From Planctomycetota bacterium (GTDB taxonomy: Bacteria; Planctomycetota; UBA8742; UBA2392): a DNA stretch of 53,064 nucleotides. The notes beneath the pieces were generated by a model. The model saw only the letters and a list, made by a program, of their open reading frames with translations, made no database searches and was not told the origin of the DNA. The stretch covers positions 1 to 53,064 of the forward strand of contig JAMQHL010000002.1 of NCBI GenBank assembly GCA_025993795.1. The letters are read 5' to 3'. The position numbers and the translations under genes were made by a program. Numbering within the stretch: position 1 is the first letter of the stretch; each line of letters starts with the position of its first letter. Below are positions 7,829-20,543 of the stretch, piece by piece.

Positions 7829-9556
7829 ATGCGTTATCTGGCGCTACTTCTACTGTGCGGGACCCTTTCTGCAGCCGAGATCTTTGTTGCGCCCTCGGGC
7901 AATGACACTACCGGCACCGGTGCCATTGGGGCACCCTATGCGACGCTTTCGCGGGCGCATCAGGCGGCGGGCTCAGGCGACACCATCACTTTTCGCGCGG
8001 GCACATACACCGGCGGCCTGTACATCACCAAGAGCAACCTGACGTTCCAGGGCTACACCGGCGAAACGGCGGTGATTTCGCTGCCGAACAACGTCAACGG
8101 CCAGGACGTTGCCTTCTACCTTGGCACAGCCGGCAACTGCACGGTGCGGCGCCTGACGTTGCAGGGCGGGTATTACTACGCGATCAAGATCGATACCGGG
8201 CCCTGCCTGGTGGAAGACTGCCGCATCCATGGCAGCGGCCGCGACTGTGTGAAAATCCCCGGCGCCGACAACATCACGATCCGCCGTTGCGAGATCTATG
8301 ACAGCGGCTTGCGTGACCCCAGCAACGCCGAGGGCATCGACAACGTCAACGGCGACTACATGCTGGTGCAGGACTGCTACATCCACGACATCGCCACCAA
8401 CGGCGTGTATCCCAAGGGCGGCAGCATCGGCAGCATCATCGAGCGCTGCCTGATTCGCAGCTGTGGCCAGAAGGGCATCAGCATGGCGCAATCCAGCGGC
8501 CTGCAGTTCTACGACACCACGCAGAATCCTGAGTATTACTCATGCCGCGACTGCATTGCCCGCAACAACATCATTGAAGACTGCGTCGGCAGCGGCATTG
8601 ACCTTGAATCAGCCCTGCGCGCCAGGGTCTACAACAACACCATGGTCAACGTGGCGCAGAGCCAGCAGGGCGGCATACGCATCGCCAGCGCCGACAAGGG
8701 CGGCACGGTGGGCATCGTGCAGTGCCGCGACTGCGAGATTCGCAACAACATCATCGTACTGCCCGGCGCCGGCACGCGGCCCGCCGTCTTCATGGGCAAC
8801 AACAGCCATGCCGGAACCCTGACCATGAGCAACAACCGCTACTACAAGACCGGCGGCAGCGCGGTCTTCTGGTGGGAACCGACAAGCTACAGCCTCACGC
8901 TCGCAGCCTGGAAAACCACAAGCGGCACTGACACCAACAGCACCGAGGGCGACCCGCAACTCGCAGCGAGCTGGCACCTGAACACCGGCAGCCCGTGCAT
9001 TGACGCGGGCATGACGCTCTCCGGCTTCAGCGACGACTACGACGGCAACGCACGCAGCGGCACCTGGGACATCGGAGCCGACGAGACCGGCGGCACGGCC
9101 CTGCCCACCCCGCCTGCAGCGGGCACAGTCGGCACCGGTGGCGGACAGCCGGGGGCCGGCACACCCGCCGCACCGACCGGCCTGGCCTACACCGGCACCG
9201 TGGACCTGACCTGGCAGGACAACAGCAGCAACGAAACAGGTTTTCGCATAGAGCGAATGCCCAGCGGCGGCGTCTTCACCACCCTGGCGACGGTGGCAGC
9301 CGACGTCACCAGCCACAGCGACACCACTGCCACTAGTGGCACATGGATCTACCGGGTGATCGCCTACAATGCCGCCGGCGATAGCTCACCAAGCAACCAG
9401 GTTTCGGTGACGGTTGGCGGGGGCAGCGGCGACAAGAAGAAAGGCAGCAGCGGCGGCGGCGGTTGCAACGTCAAGCCTGCAAAGGGCCTGCCTTTCGCGT
9501 TGCTGGCAGCAGCAGCAGCGGCCCTGTGGATGAAACGCCGAACGAGTGTTGCTTAG
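7829..9556 (+). CDS. Secreted right-handed beta-helix protein with Fn3 domain and surface-sorting tail
   Basis: This 575-residue protein has a signal peptide (1-16), then a parallel beta-helix (about 17-415). The helix begins with IFVAPSGNDTTGTG and AGSGDTITFRAGTYTG, the entry typical of DUF1565/pectate-lyase-like proteins, and continues with stacked coils rich in Cys, Asn and Ile. A Gly/Pro linker leads to a fibronectin type III domain (about 447-531). The tail is Gly-rich with Cys546, then a short hydrophobic stretch (554-568) and KRR. This resembles the tripartite MYXO-CTERM/GlyGly-CTERM signals that send proteins to the cell surface. Such folds often bind or cleave polysaccharide, but I see no clear catalytic set. 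GGAG at 7819-7822 is a good ribosome binding site for this ATG. Its 3' end overlaps the convergent gene 9471-14480 by 86 bp. Confidence 0.82.
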   Translation: MRYLALLLLCGTLSAAEIFVAPSGNDTTGTGAIGAPYATLSRAHQAAGSGDTITFRAGTYTGGLYITKSNLTFQGYTGETAVISLPNNVNGQDVAFYLGTAGNCTVRRLTLQGGYYYAIKIDTGPCLVEDCRIHGSGRDCVKIPGADNITIRRCEIYDSGLRDPSNAEGIDNVNGDYMLVQDCYIHDIATNGVYPKGGSIGSIIERCLIRSCGQKGISMAQSSGLQFYDTTQNPEYYSCRDCIARNNIIEDCVGSGIDLESALRARVYNNTMVNVAQSQQGGIRIASADKGGTVGIVQCRDCEIRNNIIVLPGAGTRPAVFMGNNSHAGTLTMSNNRYYKTGGSAVFWWEPTSYSLTLAAWKTTSGTDTNSTEGDPQLAASWHLNTGSPCIDAGMTLSGFSDDYDGNARSGTWDIGADETGGTALPTPPAAGTVGTGGGQPGAGTPAAPTGLAYTGTVDLTWQDNSSNETGFRIERMPSGGVFTTLATVAADVTSHSDTTATSGTWIYRVIAYNAAGDSSPSNQVSVTVGGGSGDKKKGSSGGGGCNVKPAKGLPFALLAAAAAALWMKRRTSVA

Positions 9557-12500
9557 GTTGCAATAACGGCGGCGGTAGCTGTATCACTGCTGGCCGCCGG
9601 GGCCAAGACGCCACGGGTGCAACGCCGCACGTCGGTCGGCGCCCCGCGATCGCACGCAGCGCCAGCAGCAGTGCCGCCAGCAGCATTGCCGTCGTGACGC
9701 AAAAGCCTGGCGTTGTGTTTGCCGAGCAACCGCCGTCGTCGCCAGCGGAGTTGCTGCCGCCGCCGCCGCCGCTACCGGACGGAACAACGTCAAACGCCGC
9801 CGAAGTACCGGGCGCCAAGCCCGGCGCCGTAAACTCCAATGCATAGGCGGTACCGGGAAGGTCAATGGCCAGCCCGGCAAACACGACGAAGCCATTCGTC
9901 GCGGTAGCCATCGTTGCGCCCGACAGGACAGCACCGGGCGCCCCCGACAGCGGGGAAATCGACGCCGTCACTTGCGTGGTGTTGTCGCTTGTCAGTGTGT
10001 TGCCGAACGCGTCCCGCACCGCCACTTGCGGCTGCCCGGTAAAGGGCTGGCCTTCAGTCGCCCCGGTGGGCTGCACAACTATCGCCAGTGCCGACGGCGT
10101 TCCAGCCGAAACCGCGAACGGTGCGCTCGTAACAGTCCCAAAACCGCTGGCCGAGAACTCAAGCCGGTAGCCCGACGCGGCAATATCGATCTGCAGGTCA
10201 ACAAAGCTGACCACACCAGAGCTCGCGGTGCGCGTTAGCGTACCAATCAGCACAGCACCAACGCCGCCGGTTCCGGCAACGATCGTCGCCGCAACCTGCG
10301 TGCTGTTGTCTGCGGTGTCCAGCGATCCGCCCGCGTCAAGCACTTCAATCACAGGCTGGGCGGATAGAAGAGCGCCCGCGGTGCCGCTGCCCGGCTGCGC
10401 CGCGATTGAAAGAGACCCCGGGGGCAATGCGAGCACATCGAACATCGGCGAAAGTACCGGCACGAGCGCCCCCGAAGTGAACTCAAGCTGATATGCAGCT
10501 CCGGCCAGGTCGATCGAAAGGCCGCCGAAGCTTGCGACACCCATCGCGACCGTGGCTTGCGGCGTTCCCGACAGTACGGCGCCGGCCGTGCCGGTGCCTG
10601 TGGCGATGGCGACGTTGATCTGGGTGCTGTTGTCATGGCTTCGCAGGTTGCCGAACGCGTCCCTGATCTCAACTTCTGGTTGCGCAGTGAACGGCACCAT
10701 GGCGGTCGAAACTCCCGGAAACGCAATCACGACCAAGCTCGCCGCGGCACCGGCTCCGACATCAAATGGCTGCGACACCGCGGCCGTCAGCGTGCCTGAC
10801 GTGAACGTCAACATGTAGCCGACGCCAGCAAGGTCAATGCGCAGGTTCGTGAAGGTCGCCGCGCCCGCAACTACGTTCATAGTCAGCGTGCCAAGCAGTA
10901 CCGCGCCGCCGGGGCCGTTCGTGATTGCCGCCGTTACCGTGCCGACATAATTGATGTCAATCTGGTTGTTCGAGTCGCGGACTTCGACGACGGGCTGGCC
11001 AGTGAGCGCAGCGCCCGATGTGGCACCGAAGGGCTGCGCGACGAACACGACCTGGACCGCCGGGGAAGTGACGAACACGTTCATCGACACGGGCTGGCCC
11101 TGGTTTCCGTCGCCGTCGTCCATTCGGAATTCGACGGTGCGTGTGAGCAACGAGGGGGCGATTGCGACGTTGTGGAAGCGTATCGCCCGTAACAATGCGC
11201 GCACCTCAACGTCCGTTGCGGCTGCATTGAAATCAACCTGCAGAAGGGTTGTGCCCACGCCGCCGGAGAAAGTTCCGATCAGTGTACCGCCGTACGTCAC
11301 GTCGCTGCCGCTGATACCAATCTGCCCCGCGCCAACGCCCTGGTTCTGGATGGTGATGCGGTCGTCTGCCGTGGCGTTGGACGTGATCTCAACCCTCAGC
11401 CAGCCGGTGTCGAAGTCGGCCGAGTCAACATCCCACACGTCGGCCAATGCATCCAGTACGACGGGGCCGACGTTGTGGTCATAGTTCGCGGACGCCACAG
11501 ACAGTGTGACGTGCGGCGAAAAGTCCAGGTTCACGTGCCATAATTCCGTGCCGGCCTGCGGATCGAATGCCCAGTACAGAAGACTTGAACCGAGCGCTCC
11601 ACCGTACTCGGGCGAACTCCATGTGGTGCCCGGCGCAAGATCGGCCAGTAGCCGGGTTCCCGCCTGGGTACCGACTGTGATCCAGAGTTCCTCGCCGTAC
11701 GCGGGCGAAGTTGCCGCGAAACACACGCGGTTTCCCACCACGCCCAGGGCTGTCGACTGGAGGCCGCTGCCGGCGCCAGGCCACGCATCCGCAAGCATGT
11801 AAGTTCCGGCGGCCGTGCCATCACTGACCCACAACTCGAGTCCCGCGCCCGTCGCCGACGCGGGGAAGTACCAGGAGTTACCCACCACGGCTGTCAGCTT
11901 GGTGCTTGAGTACGTCGACCCGCCCGTACCAAGCGAGACAATCATCGAAGTGCCCGCTTGCGTTCCGTCGCTTTGCCATACTGCGACATTGCCGGCGGTG
12001 TGCGTCAGGAACCGTACGCTGTTCCCGACCGGTGTGACGAGGCTGACCTGCTGGCTCAGCAGCAGGCTGGTTCCCGCGACCGTACCGTCGGTGCTCCAAA
12101 ACTCGTTTGTTCCCTGGTTGACGACCCTGAAGAACACGTACCCGTTGGCGACGGCAAACTCAGAATAGCTCGGAGTACCCGTGATCGAGGTCAGGCGCAG
12201 CGTGCCCGCGGTCGTTCCGTCTGAAACCCACGCCTGTCGTCCATTTGTCCCGTCGTCGGCCAGGAACACAACCTTGTTGCCCACCACTTGAGGGTTGTTG
12301 GGCCCGGAACTACCGCTTGGGTTAATGTCGAGCGGCGAGACCGTGCCGGCCGTTGTTCCATCCGAAACCCAGAGTTCGACCCCCGTGGGGCCATTGCCAG
12401 ATAGAAACACCAAACCCGGTGTAGCGACCATCCACGCGATGCTGGAGGGACTGGTTCCGCCGATTTGCTGAGTGTTTGCGCTCGTGCCATCGGTGCGCCA

Positions 12501-14480
12501 CAGCCGAACGTCGCCACTGAAGTAGAGGTAGCCCCCCATCTCCGCCGAATAGCTCCCCAGCAAGGGCGACACATTCCCGACCATCGTGGTTCCGGCTGCG
12601 GTTCCGTCCGACTTGAACAGGCGCGCGCCCGATCCGCTGTCTCCCCTGAAGTAGAATTCACCGCCGTACACAGTCGGGTCGAAGCTGGTGCTGAAACCGG
12701 TGCCGGTAGGATGCAGGTTCACGACCATCTGTGTCCCGGCTGGCGTGCCGTCGGTGCGCCAAAGTTCGTACCCGTCGGTGCCGTTCGTCGCGCGGAAGAG
12801 CGCGTATCCGCCGATCTCGTAAGTGGGCGTTGGCGCGCTGTCGGCGGTCGAAGTAATGATTGGAGCCTTTTGCGTACCCGCGACCGTGCCGTCGCTGATC
12901 CACAGGGTGGACACGCCCGAAACGGTCACGACATCCACGAAGTTGCCGCCAAAGGTCCGGAACGGCACCGGGTCTATGGACGTCCAGGTGCCGCCGGAGC
13001 CGGGCGTGAAGTTACCCAGCAGCGCAGGCGCACCACCGCCCGTTCCCCACAGCTCGCGTCCGTTCGTTGAGTCGAACGCCGCAAAGAACATGTTGTCCCC
13101 GGCCGCCGCCACTTTCTCCGGCGAACTGCCGCATGTTCCCAGGAACTGCGTGCCGCCCAGCGTGCCATTCGAACGGTAGATGCCTGTGTTGCCCGCGGAC
13201 GTGCCGTAGAAGAACAGGTACGTCCCGGAGCTGATGATCACGTTGAAAGTCGTGCTGGCGCTGCCTGCCGAGAGATTCAACGCCAAGGCTGTGCCGGCGC
13301 TGGTTCCGTCCGTGCGCCAAAGTTCCCTGCCATTCGTGCCGTCATCCGCGGAGAAGTAAAACTCGGTTCCGTGGGCCACTACCGTCCCCGGGCTGGAGCT
13401 TGCGGCGCCGGGACGGATGTCGTGCACCATTTGGGTGGTGCCGGCTGTCCCCTGGCTTCGCCATAGCTCAGCGCCGTTCGTTCCGTCGTTCGCGCGGAAG
13501 TACAGATCGTTGCCAACCACGGACAGGGCGACCGGATCCGACGCCCCCGCGCCCGGGTTGATGTCCAGCATCACGGTCCCCGCTGGCGTGCCGTCGGAGA
13601 TCCAGAACTCCCTCCCCTGCGTGTCACTTGCTGCTGCGAAGTACAGCCGGTTGCCAGTAAAGGCATGGTAGGTCATCGAGATGCTGGTGGCGCCGGCGTG
13701 CGTGTCGGCAAGCATGACTGTGCCGGCTGTTGTTCCGTCAGTCACCCACAATTCGGTGCCGTTGACCCCGTCGTTGGCCGAGAAGATGAGTCGGCCGTTC
13801 ACCTCGCCCAGCACGCTCACGCTGCTGGCAGTGGCACCCGTTCGGATGTCCCGCAACATGAAGGTGCCGGCGCTGGTGCCGTCGGAGATCCAGGGCTCGG
13901 CGCCGGTCGTCGACGTGCTGAACACGAAGAAGAGGCTGTTGCCCAACGGCGTAACCGACTGCAGCGAAGAATTTGGCGTGCCTGGGTTAAGGTCAGCAAC
14001 AAGCGATGTTCCGGCGGATGTACCGTCCGAAACCCATAACTCGAACCCGGTGGCAGCGGTAGATGCGTGAAAGAACAGGCGGTTGCCCGCGGGCCAGATG
14101 TCCATGATACTGCCTATGCCGTGCACACCGAATGACGTGACAGGCGTTGAGCCCCCGGTCAGCCCGTTCGACATCCATAGCTGAGTCAGGGCGCCGTAAT
14201 CGTGTCCACTAAAGTATAGTGCGCCGGACCACACGCACAGGTTGTCTGTGGTGACCGTATCATCGACAAGCGCCGTGCCGGCCACCGTCCCGTTCGTGGC
14301 CCACAAATCGTAACTGCCCCTGAAGTAGAGCTGGCCGTTGAACTCAACGAAGAAGTCCGGGTCGGGGTTTCGCGTACCCGGTCCCGGGTTCAGGTCACCA
14401 AGCAACGTTGCCTGAGCCGAAGCCACTCCCCCAACGAGGGCAAGCAGCACGAGTAGCGCGCTCTTGATGGCGTTTCGCAT
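9471..14480 (-). CDS. Giant secreted ELWxxDGT-repeat protein with Ig-like domains
   Basis: The 1669-residue protein has a signal peptide (MRNAIKSALLVLLALVGGVA, cut after AQA). Residues about 27-1010 hold some twenty copies of a 45-50 residue repeat around ELWVSDGTTAGTVML, the ELWxxDGT repeat (TIGR04534), likely beta-propeller blades. About 1010-1140 is a cadherin-like segment ending RMDDGDGNQG. Four Ig-like units of about 105 residues follow, each with a Q-P-x-V-E-V-R-D core (QPVVEVRDSNNQ, QPEVEIRDAFGN, QPVIEVLDAGGS, QPQVAVRDAFGN). The end has a Gly-rich stretch, Cys1585, Cys1594, a hydrophobic segment (1595-1608) and GRR. Unusually, 54 more residues follow the Arg pair, the last of them coded antisense to the neighbouring gene. 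This may be a lost stop or a frameshift. It is probably a cell-surface or adhesive protein; no enzyme motif is seen. Confidence 0.85.
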   Translation of the reverse strand: MRNAIKSALLVLLALVGGVASAQATLLGDLNPGPGTRNPDPDFFVEFNGQLYFRGSYDLWATNGTVAGTALVDDTVTTDNLCVWSGALYFSGHDYGALTQLWMSNGLTGGSTPVTSFGVHGIGSIMDIWPAGNRLFFHASTAATGFELWVSDGTSAGTSLVADLNPGTPNSSLQSVTPLGNSLFFVFSTSTTGAEPWISDGTSAGTFMLRDIRTGATASSVSVLGEVNGRLIFSANDGVNGTELWVTDGTTAGTVMLADTHAGATSISMTYHAFTGNRLYFAAASDTQGREFWISDGTPAGTVMLDINPGAGASDPVALSVVGNDLYFRANDGTNGAELWRSQGTAGTTQMVHDIRPGAASSSPGTVVAHGTEFYFSADDGTNGRELWRTDGTSAGTALALNLSAGSASTTFNVIISSGTYLFFYGTSAGNTGIYRSNGTLGGTQFLGTCGSSPEKVAAAGDNMFFAAFDSTNGRELWGTGGGAPALLGNFTPGSGGTWTSIDPVPFRTFGGNFVDVVTVSGVSTLWISDGTVAGTQKAPIITSTADSAPTPTYEIGGYALFRATNGTDGYELWRTDGTPAGTQMVVNLHPTGTGFSTSFDPTVYGGEFYFRGDSGSGARLFKSDGTAAGTTMVGNVSPLLGSYSAEMGGYLYFSGDVRLWRTDGTSANTQQIGGTSPSSIAWMVATPGLVFLSGNGPTGVELWVSDGTTAGTVSPLDINPSGSSGPNNPQVVGNKVVFLADDGTNGRQAWVSDGTTAGTLRLTSITGTPSYSEFAVANGYVFFRVVNQGTNEFWSTDGTVAGTSLLLSQQVSLVTPVGNSVRFLTHTAGNVAVWQSDGTQAGTSMIVSLGTGGSTYSSTKLTAVVGNSWYFPASATGAGLELWVSDGTAAGTYMLADAWPGAGSGLQSTALGVVGNRVCFAATSPAYGEELWITVGTQAGTRLLADLAPGTTWSSPEYGGALGSSLLYWAFDPQAGTELWHVNLDFSPHVTLSVASANYDHNVGPVVLDALADVWDVDSADFDTGWLRVEITSNATADDRITIQNQGVGAGQIGISGSDVTYGGTLIGTFSGGVGTTLLQVDFNAAATDVEVRALLRAIRFHNVAIAPSLLTRTVEFRMDDGDGNQGQPVSMNVFVTSPAVQVVFVAQPFGATSGAALTGQPVVEVRDSNNQIDINYVGTVTAAITNGPGGAVLLGTLTMNVVAGAATFTNLRIDLAGVGYMLTFTSGTLTAAVSQPFDVGAGAAASLVVIAFPGVSTAMVPFTAQPEVEIRDAFGNLRSHDNSTQINVAIATGTGTAGAVLSGTPQATVAMGVASFGGLSIDLAGAAYQLEFTSGALVPVLSPMFDVLALPPGSLSIAAQPGSGTAGALLSAQPVIEVLDAGGSLDTADNSTQVAATIVAGTGGVGAVLIGTLTRTASSGVVSFVDLQIDIAASGYRLEFSASGFGTVTSAPFAVSAGTPSALAIVVQPTGATEGQPFTGQPQVAVRDAFGNTLTSDNTTQVTASISPLSGAPGAVLSGATMATATNGFVVFAGLAIDLPGTAYALEFTAPGLAPGTSAAFDVVPSGSGGGGGSNSAGDDGGCSANTTPGFCVTTAMLLAALLLALRAIAGRRPTCGVAPVASWPRRPAVIQLPPPLLQPKQHSFGVSSTGPLLLLPATRKAGPLQA

Positions 14481-19089: not shown

Positions 19090-19224
19090 AGTTGTCGTTT
19101 CCGTGCCCATCGCCGATCGGAATTCTACAGACAACCTGAACCAGCCAAAGCAAGCTTCGTTTGCATGGTCTCTCTGCACAGGGCAGGGATCTTTGACAAC
19201 GCCAAAGGCACGGAGGAGGTTCGA

Positions 19225-20496
19225 ATGTCGAGCATGAGTGGTCGACTGGGCGGACGACTCGTCCTGCAAATGGCAGCAATTGTGGGATTGAGTCTTTTCT
19301 GCAGCACCATGGCGGCGCAGGCTACGGGCAGCCAAGCCGCCAACATCCAGTTCGCGCAAAGTTGGGGGCCGATCCCGACCGGGTTCAACGAACTGAATGA
19401 CTACTTCGCAGCACCCGGCTACATCACACTTCTTGAATTGTGGGCTCCCGGCTGAAGCATTTGCCAAAGCGGAGTTCCGCACATGAATTCGATCCATTCG
19501 GCGAACTCAGGATCGGATTTCCAGGTAATCGCAGTAGCACAAATCGGCTGGAACGGTTGCACGCAGGCCTCCATCGGGACGACGGGATCGTCTTGGGGCA
19601 TGCAGTTTCCGTATGCAGCCACGAGTTCAGTACCCGCGTATTACTACGGGTCGGGCTCGCTGAGTTTCGGGACGGCCTTTGCCTTTGACCGCACCGGCAA
19701 GTTGCTTTGGAAGGGACCGGCAACCCAGGTCACCAACACCATGGTACAGGGCTGGATTGCGAACAACCCTGGCGGCGGTGGAGGCGGCACCAATCAGCCA
19801 CCCGTCGCCAATGCCGGCACCGACCAGACGGTCTATGAAGGGGCCACCGTTACGCTCAATGGCAACGGCAGCACCGACCCCAACAATGACCCGCTGACCT
19901 ATGCTTGGGCGCAAATCGCGGGCAGCACCGTCACGCTGCAGAACGCCAACACTGTGGCTGCCAGCTTCGTGGCGCCCACCACCGGCAGCACCAAGACATA
20001 TACGTTCAGGCTGACCGTGAACGACGGCAGGGGCGGCACAGACACGGACGACATCGTGGTCACGGTCAACCCGCTCAACTTCGCGCCAAATGCTGACGCG
20101 GGCGCCGACCAGGGCGCGACGTACAGCAGCGTGGTCACACTGTTCGGGAACAACAGCAGCGACCCGGACAACGACCCGCTGACCTACGCCTGGGTCCAGA
20201 CGATTGGCGGCCCCGTTACGCTGAGCAACGGCAACACCGCGACGCCGAGCTTCACGGCGCCGGCGGTGAATGACACCCTCACGTTCCGGCTTACGGTCCA
20301 GGATCCGCTGGGCCTTTCTGACTCCGACACCGTCGTGGTCCACGTCAACGCCGGCGGAGTCATTCCGATCGACCCGTTGTCCGGCGGCGCCTCCGGGGCT
20401 GGCGGCGGCGGTTGCGCGGCGATGGGCGGCGGCAGCGGCGTGTTCGGGCTGTTGGGCCTGCTGGGCCTGAGGCTGCGCCGGCGCAGAAAGCAGTAA
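19225..20496 (+). CDS. Probable secreted selenoprotein: thioredoxin-fold UxxC domain, two PKD domains, surface tail
   Basis: One frame runs from ATG 19225 to the stop at 20496, broken only by TGA at 19453-19455. Read through as selenocysteine it gives 423 residues. A strong AGGAGG (19214-19219) lies 5 nt before the ATG. Residues 1-33 are a signal peptide. Residues 35-175 look like a TlpA/thioredoxin domain: ITLLELWAPG, then TGA (residue 77), then SIC (Cys80) QSGVPHMNSIH, later FQVIAVAQIGW and FAFDRTGKLLWKGP. The TGA thus sits exactly where the first Cys of CxxC is expected. Two PKD/K319-like domains follow (about 180-365; each with DADQ- or NAGTDQ-type starts and DPLTYAW). The tail has Cys397, a Leu-rich segment and RRRR. 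It should act outside the cytoplasm as a surface redox protein. The alternative is a pseudogene with a nonsense mutation, or two separate small genes. Confidence 0.75.
19453..19490 (+). promoter_or_regulatory. Candidate bacterial SECIS hairpin directly after the in-frame TGA
   Basis: GCGG (19469-19472) and CCGC (19477-19480) close the loop AGTT, with G as the second loop base, 17-20 nt past the TGA. Weaker outer pairing (CAT 19458-19460 with ATG 19483-19485, and GAA 19454-19456 with TTC 19488-19490) brings the TGA to the base of the stem. Bacterial SECIS elements lie at this distance and have a G among the first loop bases. The lower stem is interrupted, so this is a candidate only. Confidence 0.5.
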
Positions 20497-20513: not shown

Positions 20514-20543
20514 CATGGCCCGCCCCGGCAGGGGCGGGCCATG
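20514..20543 (+). terminator. Strong hairpin after the selenoprotein gene
   Basis: CATGGCCCGCCCC (20514-20526) pairs perfectly with GGGGCGGGCCATG (20531-20543) over a GGCA loop, 13 bp in all, 18 bp past the stop. No U tract follows, so it may act as an mRNA-stabilising end or a Rho-linked terminator. Confidence 0.65.

Follow-up and report, generated by a model that had tools for sequence, protein, structure and literature searches.

TlpA-like proteins with a UxxC motif are already known as selenoproteins. An inventory from 2026 includes UxxC selenoproteins under the names 'Thiol-disulfide isomerase-like protein' (cd02966) and 'Redoxin family protein' (PF08534), as well as other thioredoxin-fold selenoproteins and TsoB, a rhodanese/DsbD fusion (PMC13188914), and the model NF041054 describes a ResA-like selenoprotein with the motif WAxxUGC. 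Selenocysteine (Sec) use in the phylum Planctomycetota is known from the Porphyra planctomycetes, for which FdhA and FmdB were discussed and six putative antioxidant selenoproteins were given for P1 (PMC4807772). Using selenium comes at a high cost to the cell, and beyond the cytoplasm a selenol might be expected to be fragile. Among surface thioredoxins, the pneumococcal lipoproteins Etrx1 and Etrx2 (4hqs, 4hqz) are held by another type of anchor, lack PKD domains, and use Cys rather than Sec.

In this work we analyzed a 53,064-nt stretch of DNA (the window, which is the whole of contig C5) from a Planctomycetota draft genome of 3.29 Mb in 75 contigs (84.94% complete). It carries a gene with a single in-frame TGA at codon 77. 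We propose, with a probability of roughly 70%, that this UGA very likely encodes Sec and that the gene product is probably an exported UxxC thioredoxin-fold protein, likely reducing extracytoplasmic disulfides and predicted to be held at the surface by its PKD domains and a MYXO-CTERM-like tail. It shares with the UxxC entries of the inventory the thioredoxin fold, Sec as the first residue of UxxC, and a prediction based on UGA/Cys pairs and hairpins; it differs in its PKD domains and sorting tail, neither of which is mentioned for these entries in the available part of the inventory, and also in the absence of a Pfam thioredoxin match and in a Gly in the cis-proline column (PMC13188914). Compared with ResA, DsbE, and TlpA (1st9, 3gl3, 1jfu), the window protein has a Sec where these have Cys, shows no cis-proline in the alignment, and carries additional PKD domains and a tail. 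NF041054 likewise combines a ResA-like domain with Sec, but there the spacing is UGC rather than UxxC; this model gave no match to the window domain at E 0.01, and two paralogues (L022 and L023) matched it weakly, with 45.0 and 46.5 of 300 bits. A description of a selenoprotein with the PKD/sorting-tail architecture was not found in the open-licence literature, a search that leaves absence unproven; this layout and the pairing with a Sec-containing DsbD look new.

The interrupted frame and its predicted product

The frame extends on the + strand from ATG 19225 to the TAA at 20494-20496 (19225..20496, 423 codons plus stop), and the TGA at 19453..19455 (+) is its only internal stop, in the translated context LLELWAPG-U-SICQSGVPH. 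The initial annotation had described a 423-codon frame broken only by a TGA at the first position of a thioredoxin CxxC motif, with a good Shine-Dalgarno sequence, PKD domains, and a sorting tail. Translation confirmed the frame; a Shine-Dalgarno-like GGAGGAGG is located 5 nt upstream of the ATG (19212..19219, +); and the protein scored 122.8 bits against a gathering score of 27 with PF22352 in two stretches, PKD domain 1 at residues 197-281 (19813..20067, +) and PKD domain 2 at about residues 290-376 (20092..20352, +, limits set by eye). The tail (20386..20493, +) does show the expected order of a Gly-rich segment, a Cys, a hydrophobic run, and RRRRKQ, but it stays below both curated cut-offs (TIGR03901, 15.4 of 20 bits; TIGR03382, 15.5 of 15.85). 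A probable signal peptide recognized by eye (residues 1-33, ending in AQA; 19225..19323, +) would export the protein. Just 3' of the gene, an inverted repeat was seen by eye (20514..20543); its arms are 13 bp long, its loop is 4 nt, and it lacks a T run. Promoter and terminator scans detected none.

The tripartite tail, with its Cys, hydrophobic run, and Arg-rich end, is shared with the myxobacterial MYXO-CTERM proteins as far as these are described in the available part of the source, and differs in scoring just under both cut-offs in a genome with no confirmed myxosortase (PMC11980579). The three CPBP-type proteases found in the 84.94% complete genome were all below any curated myxosortase cut-off, and because of this and the tail scores, export and surface display are likely rather than shown. 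When tails were scored for two of the orthologues, the window gene and L026, the latter reached 20.9 bits, above the MYXO-CTERM cut-off of 20, as did a paralogue in the source genome (L021, 21.8 bits). Anchoring of the window protein at the cell surface is therefore likely on the evidence of the orthologue's tail; a CPBP-type protease would process the tail at its Cys, after which the protein may be displayed. Two other long frames of the window (7829-9556 and 9471-14480) also have Gly-rich, Cys-containing, hydrophobic tails, one scoring 17.1 of 20 bits with the MYXO-CTERM model and the other giving no match.

The segment between signal peptide and PKD domains (residues 34-186 as modelled; 19324..19782, +) gave a thioredoxin-fold model (pLDDT 86.5, pTM 0.84), predicted to fold like ResA, TlpA, and DsbE. 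ResA, DsbE, and similar bacterial thiol-disulfide proteins are at the top of both structure-match lists (Foldseek matches and aligned entries). Pfam thioredoxin models did not match the domain, the whole protein scored below the cut-offs of the TlpA (23.6 of 230 bits) and ResA (14.1 of 170 bits) models, and no NCBIfam model reached its cut-off with the whole protein. The same was true of seven such domains from this genome, although domain pieces scored against whole-protein cut-offs make a hard test. The codon at 19669..19671 (+), directly followed by a predicted strand, encodes Gly in 7/7 orthologues, in an alignment column that the cis-proline occupies in most paralogues. Because of this Gly and the missing Pfam match, the chemistry of the window protein may differ from that of TlpA.

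These features bear on the most serious alternative, that the product contains Sec but has a role other than disulfide reduction, its Gly-column site binding a metal or reducing peroxides or another small molecule. The cis-proline is reported, in the part of the source available, to exceed even the CxxC pair in conservation, and it may keep metals out (PMC2757866). The Gly at its column in all seven orthologues would suit such a role, as would the presence of human GPX8 (ranks 39 and 50 among the 50 Foldseek matches listed) and of a deiodinase core (one of the 50 aligned entries listed). Against this are the bacterial thiol-disulfide proteins that head both lists and the UxxC spacing, which is that of thiol-disulfide enzymes. 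In addition, the cis-proline column was assigned from predicted strands and from an alignment that has an insertion close by, and a different proline may therefore fill the site. We consider this alternative unlikely, though clearly less so than the others discussed below. In the preferred reading, a disulfide reductase, Sec77 would attack the substrate disulfide and Cys80 would resolve the intermediate, by analogy with the mechanism of the fold class. A third cysteine (in GWNGC) was considered as the resolving Cys and rejected, since it is Ala in L028 and L030.

With respect to the surface redox enzyme that had been suggested for this locus, the redox part fits the UxxC motif and the predicted fold; the surface part is likely but unproven, given a window tail below the cut-offs and an orthologue (L026) tail that passes.

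Conservation on both sides of codon 77

UxxC, CxxU, or UxxU patterns in open frame (preceded by 45 or more open codons and followed by 60 or more) occur at 12 places in the window, codon 77 included, so the bare pattern is weak proof of Sec. More weight comes from the relatives. Matches to the domain were found at E 1e-5 in 27 of 149 genomes, and seven of these, the source genome included, contain clear orthologues (at least 64% identity) spanning three genera of one family. Each orthologue has one TGA, in the same column and within UxxC (7/7), and all seven share the layout of signal, thioredoxin domain, PKD domains, and tail. Four loci (L053-L056) give the same proteins as L025, L026, L027, and L029 and were not recounted. 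When 392 genomes were drawn from the phylum, the same seven orthologues were returned at E 1e-15, the rest being weaker paralogue matches, and the four named records with the gene are Planctomycetota MAGs. In six orthologue pairs, dS ranged from 0.31 to 2.6 and was once saturated; since the TGA column persists in 7/7 orthologues despite much synonymous change between most of them, its presence at codon 77 is above chance. The dN/dS ratio, where computable in these pairs, was 0.00-0.25 upstream of the TGA and 0.03-0.19 downstream, and by these ratios purifying selection acts on both sides.

A database relative that is 82% identical (P0002) has Cys at the position of codon 77. In three other entries (P0003, P0004, and P0006), the protein starts ten residues past the UGA position, where a gene caller would cut, and UxxC redox enzymes can thus hide as truncated PKD proteins. 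This exposes a gap in annotation.

These truncated entries could also be taken at face value: translation would end at the TGA, perhaps as a regulatory stop, and restart at ATG 19483 to give a PKD protein that lacks a full thioredoxin domain. The entries begin at the codon corresponding to ATG 19483, which has a GGAG 8 nt upstream. However, that codon varies among the seven orthologues (ATG in two, TTG in two, CTG in two, and CTT in one), the segment upstream of the TGA is itself under purifying selection, and the downstream product would have a sorting-type tail yet no signal peptide. Two separate products are thus quite improbable. Even less credible is that the TGA arose by a sequencing error, or by a recent nonsense mutation as the gene decays: the draft state of the genome (84.94% complete, 75 contigs) would allow for one, but the same TGA occurs in all seven genomes, the sequence downstream of it is under purifying selection, and the orthologue frames read contain no further stop or frameshift.

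At the same-genus locus L053, the genes on both sides of the orthologue are retained. The neighbours were also tried as a clue to the substrate in the 6-kb flanks of L054-L056, where only the orthologue and overlapping frames were matched. In genome G001, another UGPC thioredoxin-like frame (L025, base 2432, +) is present, divergent from the same-genus orthologue of the window gene.

Selenocysteine machinery and the hairpin after the UGA

Profile searches of the source genome found selA (530.2 bits, contig C43), selB (332.9 bits, C24), and selD (397.5 bits, C70), all above their curated cut-offs. A tRNA-Sec at 69.2 bits, also above its cut-off and with the anticodon TCA according to ARAGORN, is located on C43 about 0.7 kb from selA. 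The selD gene itself has a TGA in its redox loop (GAGUGCK). SelA was above the cut-off in all 16 family genomes. The tRNA-Sec and selA genes are on one strand (L002 8808-11026), separated by a glycosyltransferase-like frame, whereas other contigs carry selB and selD.

We also considered a changed code or general read-through, by which UGA would be read as an ordinary amino acid without selenium. The genome does contain several TGA-interrupted frames, but TGA still serves as the terminal stop of L026, L028, L030, and the genome's own dsbD, the TGAs that were followed are found at redox positions occupied by Cys in relatives, the full Sec machinery is present, and hairpins follow the TGA; such a reading is very improbable. 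Instead, SelB and Sec-tRNA-Sec would read UGA77, aided by a hairpin at nt 17-28 (counted from the T of TGA), as the comparative evidence suggests.

This hairpin (19469..19480, +) folds as GCGG-AGUU-CCGC, with the loop G at nt 22 and GU at nt 22-23. The SECIS element of Escherichia coli fdhF has GU at nearly the same place. With only 4 bp, the window hairpin alone is not significant (z -1.58, p 0.068; z -0.53 for nt 4-48). In the gene set the signal is stronger. Nt 13-36 are more stable than the mean of synonymous shuffles in 39 of 41 distinct UGA genes (mean z -1.60); the mean z in six Cys genes is -0.63, and three of these six are also below 0. For nt 4-48 the mean z is -0.99 in UGA genes and -0.53 in Cys genes. 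A scan for an unbroken stem of at least 4 pairs, a loop of 3-9 nt, G within the first two loop bases, and -3 kcal/mol found a hairpin with an apical-loop G in 38 of 44 UGA genes, where 16.2 were expected from synonymous shuffles, related sequences in these statistics not being independent; it failed in L022, L034, L057 (base 693), L059 (base 693), L064, and L077 (base 7421). When GU was required in the loop, 34/44 genes remained against 7.6 expected. None of the six Cys genes has the hairpin, a weak contrast because only 0.4 was expected in that set. The scan criteria were set after folding four thioredoxin genes of this genome and selD, and partly follow the published consensus; some of the signal in these four thioredoxin genes is therefore there by construction. 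The best common register among paralogues (pairs 17-20/25-28) keeps at least three of its four pairs in 23 of 39 sequences (14.2 expected), and two other registers gave 10 against 3.9 and 9 against 5.1. From sequence comparison, a SECIS-like hairpin is upheld for the gene set and is suggestive for the window gene alone. The proposal of the initial annotation that this is a selenoprotein is thus strongly supported by the Sec machinery, the TGA in 7/7 orthologues, the Cys relative, and the hairpins, and the close relatives give no sign of decay.

DsbD and other TGA-bearing genes

The genome's own DsbD (L092, G000:C61) consists of DsbD_N, DsbD_TM, and two thioredoxin domains, and the C-terminal thioredoxin domain has a TGA (locus base 2572) in GYNUKNC, again a UxxC, followed by a 7-bp hairpin. 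TsoB is also a DsbD-type selenoprotein, but is a rhodanese fusion instead of this arrangement of domains, and the own DsbD scored 163.8 bits with its model (NF045694), far under the cut-off of 805. We also examined DsbD at loci L093-L112: the C-terminal thioredoxin domain was found in all 16 family genomes, the first UxxC codon being TGA in 12 and TGC in 4. The hairpin after the dsbD TGA covaries in eight rows drawn from the 12 UGA genes (identical L099 and L103 merged, L106-L108 omitted as too divergent, and L102 retained though it breaks most of the stem). Ten cells show changes on both sides of the stem, where shuffles average 4.4 (1/500 reaches ten), and the covariation score is 0.464 against 0.180 (reached by 0/500). 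Three pairs have such two-sided changes, a number that 291/500 shuffles also reached; with the stem partners slid, at most 3 cells were changed on both sides. In L106-L108 a second TGA was seen in another thioredoxin domain, which resembles the N-terminal one of the own DsbD.

Since this DsbD has a TGA at its UxxC, the protein that likely reduces the exported thioredoxins is itself a likely selenoprotein. We infer that the window protein is an extracytoplasmic thiol reductase whose active site would be recycled by electrons from Sec-DsbD. Two genomes (G006 and G011) speak against this pairing, as each has a Sec orthologue of the window gene together with a Cys DsbD.

A profile of these domains found 11 TlpA-like frames in the source genome, of which seven have one TGA, in each case at UxxC: the window gene, L021 (UGHC), L022, L023, L082, and L085 (all UGPC), and L083 (UIPC). 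A weak fifth match beside selD (L024) was dropped, its frame having a TAA and a TGA and no UxxC. At least nine redox or selenium genes of this genome bear a TGA, DsbD included, which is no record given the 39 genes of the largest prokaryotic selenoproteome in the available part of a 2022 review (PMC9312934). Among paralogue rows, the position of codon 77 is TGA (UxxC) in 42 and TGC or TGT (CxxC) in 6; the rows comprise the family loci plus L043, L045, and L046 of other families (L035 and L036 being covered by L069 and L062), and these numbers are no census because 10 stop-free loci of other families (L037, L038, L040-L042, L044, and L047-L050) were left out. The window gene belongs to a larger set of likely exported selenoproteins. 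We advance as a tentative view, somewhat short of even odds, that thiol chemistry outside the cytoplasm is based on selenium in this family, with Sec-DsbD passing electrons outward to some six or more UxxC thioredoxin-like selenoproteins that are exported, one of them displayed at the surface on a PKD stalk with Gly in place of the cis-proline and perhaps acting on targets other than ordinary protein disulfides. As this family keeps UGA both in DsbD and in a number of thioredoxins that are likely exported, and now and then has Cys instead, the worth of Sec in this setting is directly testable.

The remaining four TlpA-like frames of the genome have no TGA, and two of them (L084, G000:C52; L087, G000:C22) have no intact CxxC. 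Both are located about 1 kb from Sec-bearing paralogues and have lost one or both active-site residues.
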